From Neptunicoccus sediminis (GTDB lineage: Bacteria > Pseudomonadota > Alphaproteobacteria > Rhodobacterales > Rhodobacteraceae), in the NCBI RefSeq assembly GCF_001719615.1, contig NZ_MDVX01000008.1:124001-188000 (forward strand): DNA of 64,000 bases, written 5' to 3'. Of the stretch, positions 12,355-18,749 are shown one piece after another. The position numbers and the translations under genes are program-made. Under the pieces are notes generated by a model that was not told the DNA's origin, made no database searches, and worked only from the letters and a program-made list of their open reading frames with translations. Every line of letters begins with the position of its first letter. Within the stretch, counting starts at the first letter, position 1.

Positions 12355-12783
12355 TTAAACCGCGCGGATCGTGGCGGGCGCGGGGAAAATCAGGTCATAG
12401 GCCCATGTGAAGACGAATGTGTAGAACAGGTAAAACAGGGTAAAGGACATATCGAACAAAAGCGCCTGAAAGAGGGGCAATTCGAGCCACCACATCACAA
12501 AAGGCAGCATCATCAGCATCATTGCGGTTTCAAAGCCCACTGTATGGATGACGCGGGCACGCACGGATTTTGCAGTGCTGCCGGTTTTATACTGCAGCAC
12601 CAGATCGAATATCAGGTTGTAGACGTAGTTCAATACTGTCGCCAGAACCGAGCCTGCAACAGCAATCACGCCAATCCCTGCAAGCGAAAGGTCGAGAAAC
12701 AGAATACCGACAGTGATGAGGATGCTCAGGGCTAGTCCTTCAAACAAAAGCGCCTGACGGATACGATCGAAAGTTGTACGCAT
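12355..12783 (-). CDS. PACE family transporter (AceI-like, bacterial transmembrane pair)
   Basis: Small inner-membrane efflux protein of the proteobacterial antimicrobial compound efflux family. 142 residues with four helices arranged as two BTP repeats. Each repeat opens with a glutamate in a helix: FEGLAL with E15 (same position as the essential E15 of AceI as I recall it) and GFETAMML. The second half ends FDMSFTLFYLFYTFVFTWAY, the typical PACE ending. Known members export chlorhexidine, biocides and short-chain diamines by proton exchange. The upstream RNA (12807-12870) matches a guanidine-II riboswitch, so guanidinium or a derivative is the likely physiological substrate. That is inference. 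Confidence 0.9.
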   Translation of the reverse strand: MRTTFDRIRQALLFEGLALSILITVGILFLDLSLAGIGVIAVAGSVLATVLNYVYNLIFDLVLQYKTGSTAKSVRARVIHTVGFETAMMLMMLPFVMWWLELPLFQALLFDMSFTLFYLFYTFVFTWAYDLIFPAPATIRAV

Positions 12784-12806
12784 GGGAATTCCCTTTAGAT
12801 GTGCTT

Positions 12807-12870
12807 AAAGGGTCGTCCCTTTCCAATAAGTAACTCCGCCAGCAAAGCCGCGGAGGAGGTCGTCCTCTGG
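12807..12870 (-). ncRNA. Guanidine-II (mini-ykkC) riboswitch candidate
   Basis: Read on the minus strand, two hairpins with identical ACGA loops: P1 GAGG-ACGA-CCTC at 12867-12856, and P2 AAAGGG-ACGA-CCCTTT at 12822-12807. They are separated by 33 nt. The guanidine-II class is defined by two short stems capped by ACGR loops and joined by a variable linker, so loops, stems and spacing all fit. P2 ends 23 nt before the PACE start codon, next to its AAAGGGA ribosome site, fitting translational control. A promoter-like CTTGCC-17-TATGAT ends just before P1, placing P1 at the 5' end of the RNA. Confidence 0.85.
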
Positions 12871-12875
12871 CGGTG

Positions 12876-12904
12876 ATCATATCAAACGGCGGGGGCAAGG
12901 CAAG
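12876..12904 (-). promoter_or_regulatory. Promoter of the riboswitch-PACE transcript
   Basis: On the minus strand, CTTGCC (12904-12899), 17 nt, then TATGAT (12881-12876). Expected transcription start is about 12870, directly before the first riboswitch hairpin. Confidence 0.55.
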
Positions 12905-12975: not shown

Positions 12976-13030
12976 CGGAGAGTATGCTTCTTAAATAAAC
13001 GGAAGCAAAACGATTTTGAAAGGGTTTAAG

Positions 13031-14107
13031 ATGGCAGATTTTGACGCGCAGATCAGGGAATCTCAGGCACAGGTGGAGGCAGCGCAGTCTAAAATCTCGG
13101 AAATGTCCTCCAAGCTGGAACAAGCACAGGACAAGATGAAATCCGGCGACGATATTTCGATTGATATAGAAAACGCCTCGCTGGATGATGTGCACGCCCA
13201 TTCGGACGCGATGAATGCAAATATCGCTGAACTGATCATGGGGCTGGACGATGTAACCTCTGCCTTCAGTCAGGATTTTGATGCGATGCGCACGAAAACC
13301 GGCTGGGAAACCTTTGTGGGGATCTTCTCCAAGGGGCGGTCCGAAAGTCTGCGGCAGGAACGGATGCGCACCGCCAGTATTGACGACAAACTGCAGGATC
13401 TAATTTCAAAATCGGATGTGATTGTGAACCTGTTGCAAAGCCAGCTTGCCGTTTTGAACGAACATAAAACGCGGGTGGAAGGCAATTTGCAGGAAACCCT
13501 GACGGAACGGGAAGCTGTGGTGGGTGAGCTGGAACAGATCAAGGCCGATCTGCTGGCGATGGACCCGAGCATTATCGAGCTGGAAAACAAGATCTCGATG
13601 GAGCAGGACGCCGCCGCACGCACCAAGCTGGAAAGCGAACTTGCGGCGCTGAACGCCAAATATAACGAGCTGGCACAAGCCGAACAGGTCAAACTGGCCA
13701 ACTCCCAGACGCTGGAACGCTATATCGAAAAGGGCAAATCCTGGGTCGATAGTCTGCAAAATCAGGCGGCTACCCAGATGGTTTTGATTAACAAGCTGCA
13801 AACAGACACCAAGCAGCGGGTGGTTTTATACGATGCGCTGACGAAGTCCCTGAAAACCGCGCAACAGCAGGATGTGGCCCATAAGATCAACGAAATCGGC
13901 GTGCAGACAGATCAGGAGGCGCAAACCGCGATGGCGGCGATTGGGTCAGCTACAAACCAGCGCATGGCCGAAATGATGGAAAAGCACGAGGATCACATGG
14001 TCTTTGCCCGTAAGGTGCTGGAGGAAAAGGCGAAATCCGACGAACGCTTTGCCCGACGTTTTGAGAAAATTGTCGAGAAACACGATAAGAACCTCTATGG
14101 CGCATAG
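13031..14107 (+). CDS. Coiled-coil protein of unknown function, first gene of the AAA+ cluster
   Basis: 358 residues from the ATG at 13031 (GAAAGGG 7 nt upstream; a TTG five codons earlier is less likely). No signal peptide or membrane helix. Almost wholly helical: coiled coil at about 5-45 (SQAQVEAAQSKISEMSSKLE), a middle domain around MRTKTGWETFVGIFSKGRSE, then long coiled coils at about 125-235 and a charged C-terminal helix (FARRFEKIVEKHDKN). The layout is loosely like TelA/toxic-anion-resistance proteins, but I cannot assign the family. It is probably a cytosolic structural or adaptor partner of the ATPase three genes on; the next gene is 27 nt downstream. Confidence 0.8.
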   Translation: MADFDAQIRESQAQVEAAQSKISEMSSKLEQAQDKMKSGDDISIDIENASLDDVHAHSDAMNANIAELIMGLDDVTSAFSQDFDAMRTKTGWETFVGIFSKGRSESLRQERMRTASIDDKLQDLISKSDVIVNLLQSQLAVLNEHKTRVEGNLQETLTEREAVVGELEQIKADLLAMDPSIIELENKISMEQDAAARTKLESELAALNAKYNELAQAEQVKLANSQTLERYIEKGKSWVDSLQNQAATQMVLINKLQTDTKQRVVLYDALTKSLKTAQQQDVAHKINEIGVQTDQEAQTAMAAIGSATNQRMAEMMEKHEDHMVFARKVLEEKAKSDERFARRFEKIVEKHDKNLYGA

Positions 14108-14134
14108 AGGTTTTTCCGCTGCGGGGCTGTCTGA

Positions 14135-15253
14135 ATGAACGTTGATCTGACGCTTGATCACGAATATCTGCAAGGCGCAGCCCGCACGCGGCGCTATTTC
14201 GCGAATTTTGCGAAAATCATTGCCCATCTGGAGCGGGTCACGGACCTGTCCAGCGATGATGGTCTGGTGGGCCGTGCCGAGGCAGAGATCATCAAGGACT
14301 ACCTGTCACGGCTCAGCCACACGTTTTCGGCGCTGTCCTACAAGTATCTGATGACATGGCGGGTCTCTGGCGCCTTGCCCAACGGGATGACCGTGGACCG
14401 TCAGGACAGCGGCTTTCCGGTGTTTCAGGAACTCTTGCAGATGGCAAATGATGCGCTGAACGCAGAGCATCACCTGCGAACATCCCAGTCGCCTGAAGAG
14501 ATCAAAAAGGCGATGGTGCGGCATATTCTGAACGAGCAATCCCACCCCACCGCATTGCAATACGCCCTGTCCCAGCGGCTCTACTACGAGGCACTGGCCG
14601 GGCGGGATCTGTTTTATGCAGGCAATGACCCCCAAGCGGTCTGGCGGGGCAATATCGACGACGGGCGGCGGCGCTATCTGTTGCATTGGGCAAGCTATGA
14701 CAGCCAGACCAATCTACCCGCGCTCTATCTGATGGAACTGGAAGATTCAGGACGCACGCCGCTGGTGCAGGATGAGCGGCGCTGGCCGCAGGTGCAGGCC
14801 CATCTGATGGCGCAGGCGGTGTCGGGGCTAAAGCTGGTGACAATCGGCACCGGGTTTGATCAGGATTTCGACGATCTGCACCCGAAAAAACTGCGCCGGA
14901 TCCATATCGGGCCGATGTATTCCCACGCCTACACCGAACAAACCGGCCCGTTGCGCGATGTTCTGGCCGAAACCGCCGGACAGGAGGGCATGGACTGGGC
15001 GCTGGCGTGGACGGTGGAAACCCTGTGGTCGAAATCTGTCACCGAGGAAAAAACCGGCTGGTTTTCCTCAGCCGAGCGGGAGATTTTCAATCTGGAAGAT
15101 CGCGGAGAGCAGACCGGCGCAACCGAGCAGAACCGCGCCCTGATCCTGCCACAACGGGCCTATCAGGTGCTTAAGGATCGGGACCCTGCGGGAATGCGCA
15201 ATGTGCGCAAATACGTCGTGGGCAACAGCGGGCGCGTGGCCAGTTACAATTGA
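14135..15253 (+). CDS. Unknown soluble protein of the AAA+ cluster
   Basis: 372 residues, not recognised. No signal peptide, no membrane helix, no metal or nucleotide motif that I can see. The N-terminal half is helical (LERVTDLSSDDGLVGRAEAE, LQMANDALNAEHHL). A mixed C-terminal half holds the aromatic-rich stretch YLLHWASYDSQTNLPALYLM and conserved-looking GPMYSHAYTEQTGPLRDVLA. It lies 27 nt after the coiled-coil gene and 18 nt before the ATPase gene, so it is co-transcribed. A role as substrate adaptor or target of the ATPase is the simplest guess. Confidence 0.75.
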   Translation: MNVDLTLDHEYLQGAARTRRYFANFAKIIAHLERVTDLSSDDGLVGRAEAEIIKDYLSRLSHTFSALSYKYLMTWRVSGALPNGMTVDRQDSGFPVFQELLQMANDALNAEHHLRTSQSPEEIKKAMVRHILNEQSHPTALQYALSQRLYYEALAGRDLFYAGNDPQAVWRGNIDDGRRRYLLHWASYDSQTNLPALYLMELEDSGRTPLVQDERRWPQVQAHLMAQAVSGLKLVTIGTGFDQDFDDLHPKKLRRIHIGPMYSHAYTEQTGPLRDVLAETAGQEGMDWALAWTVETLWSKSVTEEKTGWFSSAEREIFNLEDRGEQTGATEQNRALILPQRAYQVLKDRDPAGMRNVRKYVVGNSGRVASYN

Positions 15254-15271
15254 CGACAGGATTTTGAGACA

Positions 15272-17218
15272 ATGAATGAAACCGGCAATCTGATGGAACT
15301 GAAAGAGGAGTTGATCCTTGGCAAGTATGACGCGGCGCTGGCGATGCTGGACGGGTTCGATCATACGCCGCGACTGGCGCAGAAACGGGATGGCGAACCG
15401 CAAAAGGAACGCTCCAGCGGGATCGGGACGCGGCGGCGGTTCCGCTCTACCACGCCGGGGCTGGTGACGCGCAGCACGGCGCGACCTGAAGGGGTGCATC
15501 TGATCGAACGGATCGAGGGTGCGGATGAAAGCGATCCGCTGACCTCTCCGAAACAGGCCAGCGTGTTGCAGGCCCTGCGCCGTGCGCTGGCGGTGGCCCA
15601 TGTGGTCAGCGACCAGTTTGCCGACCAGACGGGTCTTTCGGCCCTGCTGAAAGACAATCTCGCCGGAGCGCTGCCACCTGCAAAAAAGGGCGCATTTGGA
15701 GAGCTTCTGGCAGCCTCTGCCGCCATTTCCCTGCATGTTTTTGCCAATACGGCGGCCTATCTGCTGTCCTCGACTGCGGCGTCCGAAGGTGAAGGCACCG
15801 TCGATATTGGCGAGGTCGAAGAGGTGCTGACCGACAACCCGCAGCTGGCGCTACACGGTGCCTTGTGGGAGCTGGATCAGGACCTTGCACTATTTGCCAA
15901 GGATGAAGCGGGCGTTGTCCATGTGGTGCAGGCGTTCTGCGAAAAGCTGATGGAAAAAGTCGCGCTGCGGGCAGGCTCCCTGCCCCGGCTGGAGCCGTTC
16001 CGGACCGTGTCTTATCGCGTAGAGGCGGATGATTTTGAGATCAACGGCTTCACCGCCAGCCATAAGGCGAAATCCACCAAACTGACCATGACGTTCAAAA
16101 AGCCGAACGAGGTGGTCGGCAACCATATCGCCAAATATCAAGCGATGAAACTGGCCAAAATGCTGATGGCCTATGATTTTGACCGCCAGTTGAACCCCTT
16201 TGCCGAACTGGGCGGCTTTATCTTTACCTTTATGGGCGATGGTGCGCCCGGCACGGGGAAAACCACGTTGATCCAGATGATGGCGGGGATGATTAACGAT
16301 TATTGCACCAATGCGGGCTATGCCTTTCGCTATCAGAACCTCAGCACCGATTCGATTGACAGCTATCAGGGGAAGTCGGCCCAGAACGCCAAGGCGTTCA
16401 TCAATAACGTGATTGATCCCAAGGTGATCGGCTTTGGCACAATCGACGACATCGACCAGCTTGCCGGTAAGCGGGGCGACAGACAGTCGAGCGCGGGGCA
16501 GTTGGAAATCACCGCCGTCCTGATGGAAAGCTTTGCCGGTGCCAATACCGTGGTGCGCGGCAATTGTACCTTTGGCATGTTCTCGAACTATCCCGAAAAT
16601 GTGGACGATGCCCTGCGCCAGCGGGCGGGGGCGCGGTTTCTGGTGGACGGGCCGCAAACCCGCGAGGATTACATCGACATCCTGCACCTGCTGATGGGCA
16701 AGAACCATTCGATCCCGACAGGGGAACATGAACTCTTTGCCGCCCAGCAGATCAAAAAGGCAGTCGCGGCGAGCTATGAAAGCCATTCCAAACCCCATGA
16801 AACAGGGTTGCTGAACGTGTTTGACCGTGTCACTTCGGAAATTGGTGCGCTTGATACGATTGCCAAGCTTGGCACCTATCTGAAGGGAATTCAGCAGGCC
16901 GATCCGCGCTTTACCGGCCGCGCCATCAAGAACATCACGGATGCCGTCAAAGTCCGCGCGATGAATTTTGAACTGCCGGATGAATGGATGGAGAATACCG
17001 ACCTGTTTCTGGCAAAGGACTATGAGACCAAAAAGGCAATGATCGCCGAACTGGCCCAGCCGATCACGGTTGAGATGGTCATTCAGGAAATCAACCGCTA
17101 CGCCGATTCCGAGTTCCGGTACGCAGATAAATCCGACGAGGTGGCGATTGAAAATATGGTTCGGGAGTTTGCGCGGAACGAGGAAGCCAAACGGCGGTAT
17201 CTGGAGGGCAAGGTTTGA
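15272..17218 (+). CDS. AAA+ ATPase, core of the six-gene cluster
   Basis: 648 residues. A long N-terminal region of about 300 residues with no recognised domain and a basic linker (RRRFRSTTPG near 54-63) precedes a single AAA+ module. Walker A GAPGTGKT is at 324-331 and Walker B VIGFGTIDDID at 385-395. A sensor-type stretch GNCTFGMFSNYPENVDDALR precedes RQRAGARFLVDGP, a plausible arginine-finger region. The C-terminal lid is helical and charged. The ATPase module is closest in style to Cdc48/MoxR-like remodelling ATPases, but the N-domain is not theirs. It probably remodels or assembles the other cluster proteins. Confidence 0.85.
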   Translation: MNETGNLMELKEELILGKYDAALAMLDGFDHTPRLAQKRDGEPQKERSSGIGTRRRFRSTTPGLVTRSTARPEGVHLIERIEGADESDPLTSPKQASVLQALRRALAVAHVVSDQFADQTGLSALLKDNLAGALPPAKKGAFGELLAASAAISLHVFANTAAYLLSSTAASEGEGTVDIGEVEEVLTDNPQLALHGALWELDQDLALFAKDEAGVVHVVQAFCEKLMEKVALRAGSLPRLEPFRTVSYRVEADDFEINGFTASHKAKSTKLTMTFKKPNEVVGNHIAKYQAMKLAKMLMAYDFDRQLNPFAELGGFIFTFMGDGAPGTGKTTLIQMMAGMINDYCTNAGYAFRYQNLSTDSIDSYQGKSAQNAKAFINNVIDPKVIGFGTIDDIDQLAGKRGDRQSSAGQLEITAVLMESFAGANTVVRGNCTFGMFSNYPENVDDALRQRAGARFLVDGPQTREDYIDILHLLMGKNHSIPTGEHELFAAQQIKKAVAASYESHSKPHETGLLNVFDRVTSEIGALDTIAKLGTYLKGIQQADPRFTGRAIKNITDAVKVRAMNFELPDEWMENTDLFLAKDYETKKAMIAELAQPITVEMVIQEINRYADSEFRYADKSDEVAIENMVREFARNEEAKRRYLEGKV

Positions 17219-17256
17219 GGGCTTTCCTTGATTTAATATCCGTTGTGTTTCGTTTC

Positions 17257-17280
17257 GTCGGGCTGAAGCCCGACCTACGG
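17257..17280. repeat. REP-like palindrome within the AAA+ cluster
   Basis: GTCGGGC-TGAA-GCCCGAC (17257-17274) followed by CTACGG. Read in reverse it is CCGTAGGTCGGGCTTCAGCC and so on, the form of a palindrome I know from many proteobacterial intergenic repeats. It lies between the ATPase stop and the start of the next gene, so it could act as a hairpin tuning expression within the operon. Confidence 0.6.
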
Positions 17281-17291
17281 GGTGCCCTCTC

Positions 17292-18749
17292 ATGATGCGT
17301 CTTGTGCGTCGGGGGTTGATGTTCGGGAACCTGTTTGAGGTGCGCTCCCCCACTTTGGTGGAACGCTACAACCGTGCGCTGGAACATCTGACGGGGCGGC
17401 GGACTGCGCTGACGGAATTCCATCTGGATATTTCCGGCTATTCCCCTGAAATCGGGGATGAATTTGGCGATGATCTCTACCTCAATCCCAACGGATGCAA
17501 CCGGCAGTTTATTGTGCTGTCCACCGAGCAAAAGACCGCGCCGCTGCTGAATGCGAAATTCTCTACCTCGCGCAGCATCCTGCGGCGTTGGATGGATGAA
17601 AACGAGGATCAGTTGTTTGCGCTGACCGCCAAGGATGCCGTGGCCGGAGAGTTGGTGAACTCTGTGTTTTCAGTTCAGCGTCCCAACGACCTGCTGGCCA
17701 TGCGCCGGATAGAGGTTGAGGCCGACACAACGGCCTCTACGGTTGAGGATGGCAAAATCCTGCAAGGCAAAATCGACCGTTTCCTGCGGGAAGAGGACGC
17801 GTGGTGGGATGATGTGCTGATTGCCGAGATGATCGAGATCGGCAAGAAAACCGGCGATATTACCCGCAATCCGGTCGTCTTTACCCACAACAGCTTTGAA
17901 CAGCGCAACTTTTACACCTCTCATTTTGGCGGGCTGTACGTGTTCCGCGATTTGGAAGAGGCGGCCGTAATTTCGGCGCAGGTTGTAGATGACGTATCCG
18001 AGTGGGATGTCGAATACGTAATGGATTTTACCCAGCGCAATGACATCGCGACCTTCCTGGCAGCGAATAACCTTGTGGAGCCGATCACCTCGGCGCGGGG
18101 GCGGGATGTGGCTGCGATCCTGCAACAAAAGCTCGATTTTATTGTCGTGGACACCGCCGCCGCATCAGGTGAGCAGTTTGAAAATCCGGATCGCAGGACC
18201 CTGCGCCAGCTTGCACGCAGACATTTCCACCATCTGCCACAGGAATACGAAGGGCTATACCGTTTGTGGCAATGGGCGCGGGGTCAGGGGGACTGGCCGC
18301 GGATCACCTCTGAACATCCGGCCTATTTCTATACGTTACGGGCCAGCGATCACGCCGATAAGGATCTGGTGAACATGCTTCTGGCGGAACTCGCCCCGCT
18401 GGATGTGCGCCAGTTGTTCATCTGCCACAAAGAAGCCTTCTACCGTGCCTATGCCGGATGGTCGGACGCCAAAAAGGACTTTGTGGCAGAATATCTGGCC
18501 TCTGCCTATATGATGGACAAGGCCGGCGCGCGGGAGGAATTGTTCGGCCATGACGCCGCCATAGACGCCCCCCCGCCTGCCAGAGAACCGCAGGCCCGCA
18601 AGCCGGCAATCCAGCCTTGGGGTCGTCGCAAGGATGATGATGACGACGATTACGACGACGACGATGATGATGATGATGATGATGATGACGATAAAGACCG
18701 CGATATGATACGACTGGTGGGCCCTTGGGGGGCGGTAAAACGGAGATAG
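17292..18749 (+). CDS. Unknown protein with a poly-aspartate tail, AAA+ cluster
   Basis: 485 residues; I recall similar Rhodobacterales proteins under a DUF label (possibly DUF6638), not verified. No signal peptide or membrane helix. Body of the protein: FHLDISGYSPEIGDEFGDDL, VVFTHNSFEQRNFYTSHFGG, and a helical C-terminal half. Residues about 448-467 are six Asp, Tyr, thirteen Asp, encoded by alternating GAT/GAC, then KDRDMIRLVGPWGAVKRR. The acidic tail then basic end suggests binding to cations or to a basic partner. The start has only a weak GGGGTG site downstream of the REP-like hairpin. The 73-nt gap from the ATPase is the largest in the cluster. Confidence 0.75.
   Translation: MMRLVRRGLMFGNLFEVRSPTLVERYNRALEHLTGRRTALTEFHLDISGYSPEIGDEFGDDLYLNPNGCNRQFIVLSTEQKTAPLLNAKFSTSRSILRRWMDENEDQLFALTAKDAVAGELVNSVFSVQRPNDLLAMRRIEVEADTTASTVEDGKILQGKIDRFLREEDAWWDDVLIAEMIEIGKKTGDITRNPVVFTHNSFEQRNFYTSHFGGLYVFRDLEEAAVISAQVVDDVSEWDVEYVMDFTQRNDIATFLAANNLVEPITSARGRDVAAILQQKLDFIVVDTAAASGEQFENPDRRTLRQLARRHFHHLPQEYEGLYRLWQWARGQGDWPRITSEHPAYFYTLRASDHADKDLVNMLLAELAPLDVRQLFICHKEAFYRAYAGWSDAKKDFVAEYLASAYMMDKAGAREELFGHDAAIDAPPPAREPQARKPAIQPWGRRKDDDDDDYDDDDDDDDDDDDDKDRDMIRLVGPWGAVKRR
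18633..18692 (+). repeat. GAY trinucleotide repeat encoding poly-Asp
   Basis: Twenty codons that are GAT or GAC apart from one TAC, with a pure run of eight consecutive GAT codons in the second half. Slippage here would change tail length without shifting frame. Confidence 0.9.

Follow-up and report, generated by a model that had tools for sequence, protein, structure and literature searches.

The window, a 64-kb stretch of the Neptunicoccus sediminis genome, encodes on its minus strand a 142-aa transporter of the PACE family (BTP; positions 12355-12783; Pfam PF05232, NCBIfam NF033664). Two stretches of the protein match PF05232 (118.9 bits, cut-off 25.6), and the PACE_transport model NF033664 gives 111.1 against a cut-off of 80, the PACE subfamily level. 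An earlier note on this DNA had called the gene AceI-like. The family assignment is borne out, but the AceI chlorhexidine efflux equivalog model NF033663 scores 72.8, under its cut-off of 180, and the NCBIfam PCE model scores 103.4, under its cut-off of 165. Features of PACE proteins are two BTP domains, a conserved glutamate in helix 1, an asparagine in helix 2, and an alanine and an aspartate in helix 4 (PMC6195760). The window protein keeps E15 in helix 1 (the Glu that is universal in the family), N56 in helix 2 and both A107 and D130 in helix 4, A107 being our reading of the probable counterpart of the listed alanine. It shares with AceI and PA2880 the two BTP domains, the helix-1 Glu (at position 15, as in AceI), the helix-2 Asn and the helix-4 Asp; unlike them, it misses the AceI and PCE models and belongs to a clade of its own with Lys72 and Tyr118.

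An aldehyde dehydrogenase gene (PF00171; 10769-12271, minus strand) lies downstream of PACE both in the window and in its orthologues, and this gene order is kept in the close orthologues L030/L138 and L031. An operon of the two might hint at catabolism of agmatine or guanidinobutyrate. A related aldehyde dehydrogenase gene adjoins PACE on the opposite strand in eight Rhizobium-type loci (L139, L140, L142, L143, L144, L146, L156 and L215). On the plus strand, a co-directional run of genes at 13016-18749 encodes an AAA ATPase, a DUF6638 protein containing a long stretch of Asp, and two proteins that match no Pfam family.

Two minus-strand hairpins precede the PACE start codon (ATG at 12783): P1 at 12867-12856 (GAGG-ACGA-CCUC) and P2 at 12822-12807 (AAAGGG-ACGA-CCCUUU). 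They are the ACGA-capped stems, 33 nt apart, from which the earlier note had proposed a guanidine-II riboswitch, and P2 does stand, as proposed there, beside the presumed ribosome-binding site of the 142-residue gene (UAAAGGG, 12797-12791, assigned from its position ahead of the ATG). Guanidine-II RNAs (RF01068) have two hairpins with ACGR loops and G-C closing pairs near a start codon, with a linker of 13 nt or longer in the great majority, and their P2 can compete with a hairpin over the ribosome site (PMC5486947). In the window RNA both loops are ACGA, each with a G-C closing pair, and the core (ACG in both loops plus the closing pairs) matches the ligand-contacting positions described for the class (PMC5486947). 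The copy differs from the class in its 33-nt linker, which holds an extra hairpin (12834-12855, minus strand, 6 pairs in a stem test of the fold), in an A-U-rich outer P2 stem and in a sub-cut-off score; its gene is a PACE gene, whereas the known genes are SMR genes or carboxylase operons.

The pattern GGACGRCC-N20..50-GGACGRCC occurs once in the 64-kb window (0.01 expected) and once in the 3.86-Mb genome, at the PACE leader, and the backwards-read control pattern gives eight matches in that genome. The earlier note had also placed P1 at the RNA 5' end by way of a promoter. A fitting site exists, a possible sigma-70-like TTGCCT-16-TATGAT (12903-12876, minus strand) that would put the 5' end directly ahead of P1, but at 9 of 12 consensus positions it is weak against shuffles (2 sites in 801 scanned bases, shuffle average 0.8). 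Taking these features together with the homologues described below, the window leader is almost certainly a divergent guanidine-II riboswitch.

P2 shares its bases with a competing structure. In minimum-free-energy folds, an alternative OFF hairpin (12784-12819, minus strand), exclusive with P2, pairs GGGA of P2 (12819-12816) with UCCC ahead of the AUG (12787-12784), and CCCUUUA of P2 (12812-12806) with UAAAGGG of the ribosome site (12797-12791). The unconstrained fold of the 116-nt leader has -33.7 kcal/mol and the form with P1 and P2 -29.7 kcal/mol; the ribosome site is unpaired at 0.23 in the free fold and at 0.65 with both hairpins enforced. Its openness rises in the same way in L138 (0.23 to 0.66), less in L031 (0.44 to 0.62), which differs by one base in the ribosome site, and less still in the more distant L033 (0.41 to 0.54). 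Composition-shuffled leaders paired P2 as strongly in 0/60 cases for the window, 0/60 for L138 and 2/60 for L031. The whole window leader is not unusually stable (z -1.84; 8/200 shuffles as stable). Over 64 RNAs (62 from named loci, the window and L031), the pairing between P2 and leader stands at 3.30 against 2.76 in shuffles that keep base composition only (p 0.65), with 10/64 at 0.1 or better. We therefore rejected the competing fold as a general mechanism of PACE-linked RNAs; it holds for the window, L138, L031 and a few others, and other members may use other platforms.

For the PACE leader, a translational ON switch is the likely mechanism. Without ligand, the P2 3' arm CCCUUUA would pair with the ribosome-binding site UAAAGGG, and the P2 5' arm GGGA with the UCCC ahead of the AUG, turning translation off. 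Two guanidinium ions would stabilise the loop-loop contact between P1 and P2, as in published structures of the class, upon which P2 would form and the ribosome site would be freed. The product would be a small transporter, proton-coupled like the studied PACE proteins, expelling guanidinium or a close relative and taking the role held elsewhere by Gdx-type SMR exporters. A mutually exclusive hairpin has been proposed for the Gloeobacter guanidine-II riboswitch (PMC5486947), and the fold predicted for the window leader matches it. We infer the ligand response of the window RNA, the coupling of the pump and its substrate, and consider it quite probable that the PACE leader is a guanidine-II translational ON switch whose product expels guanidinium or a close relative.

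Is PACE a regular partner of this RNA? Among 394 Rhodobacteraceae genomes, 88 have a PACE domain at 1e-8, and the Guanidine-II model (E ≤ 0.05, strict filters) gives 107 matches in 93. The overlap test used at least 81 PACE genes in at least 78 of these genomes (among the matches listed). At least 48 of the 107 Guanidine-II matches have a PACE gene on the same strand no more than 600 nt downstream, among the matches listed, and a score of at least 32 bits is reached by at least 30 of these 48, so that the same RNA is found ahead of PACE in other Rhodobacterales, where the earlier note had suggested looking. Among the PACE genes listed, the distance to the first BTP domain is 18-33 nt in 44 of the 48 and 76 nt in one; the remaining three, at 233-242 nt, are genes for which a single domain was listed. 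Such a match is missing from 33 of the 81 listed PACE genes; by a looser hairpin criterion, which allows one stem of 3 pairs, 52 of the 81 carry the switch, 6 have a half match and 23 have none.

Both hairpins precede the start codon in 62 of 80 named PACE loci, the best 80 of at least 570 relatives confirmed in a contig scan. The same pattern turned up in 1/8000 dinucleotide shuffles and at 0/24870 other 110-nt places in these loci. Loop-loop spacing in the 62 carriers is 30-46. They include Rhizobium, Agrobacterium, Devosia, Hoeflea, Mycoplana, Ciceribacter, Azospirillum, Paracoccus, Sulfitobacter and Roseovarius, as well as five Marinobacter and MAGs labelled Nitrosomonas, Arenimonas and Microvirga. 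For 20 loci picked by hand for spread out of the 80, the Rfam gathering level is reached at the same spot in 13 (33.8-43.4 bits) and missed in seven (L139, L149, L165, L166, L169, L206 and the window orthologue L138). The pattern is absent from 18 loci: 12 Marinobacter, two Alloalcanivorax, L145, L151 and L160 (labelled Rhodobacteraceae or Roseovarius) and L161, which the hairpin pattern missed yet which has an Rfam match at gathering level. A class sample of 289 genomes holds ten genes of the window's PACE type in nine genomes (1e-10), the window gene among them; the RNA stands directly ahead of two of the other nine (G480 and G664), and by eye the other seven leaders contain no complete hairpin pair. 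The switch is thus common in this PACE type, not universal. With at least 48 of 107 family matches upstream of PACE (among the matches listed) and 62 of the best 80 loci, the earlier proposal of a PACE transporter as the controlled gene is very well supported, and we are confident that the window riboswitch controls its PACE gene.

The stems themselves are kept by compensatory change, as in the guanidine-II class. In alignment A3, which comprises 56 of the 62 carrier RNAs (L138, L143, L146, L177, L179, L214 and the window RNA were left out), all four P1 pairs and the four inner P2 pairs form in 56/56 RNAs. The covariation score is 0.125 against 0.063 in shuffles (0/500 as high) and lies above all slid versions; cells changed on both sides number 49 against a shuffled mean of 29.7 (0/500 as high). 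This signal stems chiefly from the outer P2 pairs, and the four inner pairs of each stem scarcely vary. Two of the five covariation measures, all of which ignore kinship, are within the shuffle range: pairs changed on both sides (5 against 4.1; 70/500 shuffles as high) and further pair types (18 against 18.7; 411/500 as high). A linker stem of at least 3 pairs is present in 97% of the 62 PACE-linked RNAs (68% in shuffles) and in 73% of 15 SMR-linked RNAs (63% in shuffles). In nearly all of the 62 the linker hairpin is a short C-run/G-run that scarcely varies in A3.

R2, a covariance model built from the same 56 PACE-linked RNAs, was run on 54 loci outside A3 picked as relatives or apparent non-carriers. 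It finds the RNA at 30-33 bits in L061, L121, L161, L053 and L126 and more weakly (17.7-22.7 bits) in L129, L123 and L116, eight loci for which the hairpin test gave half a match or nothing; see below for the loci of the window's genus and for L177 and L179. The remaining R2-tested loci have no match ahead of PACE at E 1.

In our sample the switch is confined to one PACE subfamily, as all carriers fall within a single supported set. A quickly built tree (165 PACE rows, 147 columns), with many unresolved forks and some long branches, has a set of 150 rows (SH-aLRT 99) that contains 118 carriers, 6 half matches and 26 non-carriers, and 0/15 rows outside it have the switch. The switch label changes 17 times on the tree against 41.3 when shuffled. 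Members of the subfamily, whether carriers or not, are marked by Lys72 and Tyr118, whereas the outside rows, mostly of the same bacterial family and without AceI and PA2880, have Arg at 72 (15/15) and Phe at 118 (14/15). Some lineages have apparently lost or replaced the switch, as in five Marinobacter where PACE stands behind a tRNA gene. We lean towards the view that the members of this subfamily, in alpha-proteobacteria and parts of the beta- and gamma-proteobacteria, are dedicated guanidinium/proton antiporters controlled by guanidine-II RNAs, with an origin separate from that of SMR Gdx, whose place they take.

So, what does the pump export? Riboswitch-linked SMR proteins are guanidine exporters (PMC12186494), and in the 394 family genomes a Gdx-like SMR gene follows 27 of the 59 other Guanidine-II matches (among the matches listed; the search used an alignment of switch-linked SMR proteins). 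Like Gdx (SugE-type SMR), the window protein is a small multi-helix cation exporter under the same switch; unlike Gdx it belongs to PF05232, not PF00893, and among the matches listed no genome has both under switch control: switch-PACE (46 genomes) and switch-SMR (27) share 0, with 3.2 expected (p 0.03). Any Gdx-like SMR gene (80 genomes) occurs in 2 of the 46 switch-PACE genomes, with 9.3 expected (p 0.0015), and for PACE of any kind the deficit is weak (11 shared, 15.8 expected, p 0.08), again among the matches listed; these tests used strict filters and are uncorrected for kinship. One SMR gene is present in the window genome, and a search of that genome with the Gdx alignment at 1e-20 gave no match.

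Guanidinium export by the window pump is likely on these grounds, by inference from its switch. It is also possible, though a good deal less probable, that the riboswitch is genuine and guanidine merely the inducer, the pump carrying another guanidino compound (methylguanidine, agmatine) or cations broadly. PACE members export chlorhexidine, which is a bis-biguanide, and this speaks for the broader substrate. So do the binding of methylguanidine, aminoguanidine and agmatine by guanidine-II stem loops in crystals (PMC5486947) and the guanazole resistance that the PACE member VP1155 appeared to confer (PMC6195760). Known PACE substrates count against guanidinium export: besides chlorhexidine, export of short diamines is described for AceI; PA2880 gave no cadaverine resistance (PMC9045395). 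Indirectly, the rarity of Gdx-type SMR genes in switch-PACE genomes counts against such another substrate, as it is expected if PACE and Gdx do the same job.

The window copy itself scores low. With the Guanidine-II model of Rfam release 15 (RF01068), its match covers 12871-12808 and scores 15.4 bits (E 1.1 in 501 bases), against a gathering score of 32 bits, which is a detection level and not a structural feature; no match reaches that level anywhere in the 64-kb window. The earlier note had looked to this search for a significant match, and the window leader gave none. The window RNA is also absent from the matches of larger Guanidine-II searches under stricter filters. R2, from which the window RNA had been left out, finds its P1 and P2 separately in the 64 kb, as the best two of four matches (13.6 bits, E 0.18, and 9.5 bits, E 1.2), and has no match in a search of the whole N. 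sediminis genome. We tentatively attribute this to the long linker with its extra hairpin. Taken alone, the window copy would be only suggestive.

We rejected these low scores as a refutation, because with R2 orthologues having the same two hairpins (L030, L031 and L138) reach 24-25 bits (E 0.003-0.005) and L032 and L033, more distant PACE loci of the same genus, reach 62-63 bits; R2 contains none of these loci. L177 and L179 score 41-43 bits with R2. A PACE match at 1e-10 occurs in 6 of 33 genus genomes, the window genome counted. In G015 and G031, whose PACE proteins are 79% identical to that of the window, both hairpins are unchanged, the linker is changed and the complement to the ribosome site is present. 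P1 and P2 are identical between the window and the orthologues L030 and L031, and the ACGR loops, whose conservation in related genomes the earlier note had made a test of its reading, are conserved. The linker of L138 likewise holds a 6-bp stem. G020 and G013 (50% identity) have Rfam matches of 31.6 and 28.6 bits, slightly under the cut-off, about 17 nt from the PACE match, and the sixth PACE locus of the genus, L034 (38% identity), has no switch.

The low Rfam score and long linker would also suit a decaying remnant without ligand response, the working copies being confined to relatives. We consider this improbable, as the window shares identical hairpin cores with two orthologues at 79% protein identity although the linker has changed, and P2 pairs with the ribosome site in a strong competing fold. 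That the two hairpins are a chance occurrence or a protein-binding repeat with no connection to guanidine draws on the nine sub-threshold Guanidine-II matches in the window's own genome, among which the window RNA ranks third with two scoring higher, and is hardly credible given the position, conservation and pairing statistics and the above-cut-off Rfam matches in homologues.

Biocide resistance accounts for most of what is known about PACE pumps, and many of them have yet to be assigned a physiological role. The presence of a guanidine-sensing RNA next to the start codon in most members sampled from one subfamily points to a candidate substrate and suggests that this PACE branch exists to remove guanidine from the cell. 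Should the subfamily be one of dedicated antiporters, guanidinium export would be its native role and biocide export a side effect, with a possible origin suggested for the recognition of chlorhexidine by PACE proteins. Guanidine biology would then gain a further transporter family, next to SMR Gdx and the MATE and PnuC families already proposed (PMC7736828). Those two were likewise proposed as exporters from their association with a riboswitch, although guanidine-IV is another riboswitch class and the protein families are others (PMC7736828). A literature search over listed titles, abstract openings and selected passages found no paper joining PACE with guanidine or guanidine riboswitches, and an earlier mention is possible; PACE and guanidine are treated in separate sections of PMC10149990, and the word 'pace' in PMC12186494 belongs to an author. 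Multidrug transporters make up 65% of mini-ykkC regulons in an analysis covering Rhodobacterales (PMC3766115), and its gene tables may already contain PACE genes. As Rfam-level matches have been open to anyone, the priority of the link between PACE and guanidine is uncertain.

Several minor observations concern other leaders. Guanidine-II RNAs at L065, L067, L070, L010, L014, L229 and L230 precede a conserved protein of ~270 aa with a GGWY motif; such proteins presumably stand beside urea/guanidine carboxylase genes. Two switch-controlled PACE genes occur in each of two genomes, G166 (L044 and L093, with identical proteins) and G426 (L037 and L122). Ten PACE loci without the switch were scanned for other known RNAs and gave no riboswitch. 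In five of them, all Marinobacter (L155, L157, L164, L181 and L196), a tRNA gene and a terminator-like hairpin stand directly upstream, as if the PACE gene had been relocated without its own leader; the other five have no known RNA upstream. Repeated palindromic stretches around CTTTCTGGAAAG or close forms lie upstream of the switchless PACE genes L056, L105, L115, L132 and L224 and by eye look like repressor operators; the first four are outside the switch clade in the tree, and L224 is not in the tree. In the leaders of L050, L061, L121 and L161, P1 carries single changes, either in the loop (ACCA or AUGA) or breaking a stem pair, and these variants offer natural material on which loop bases matter.
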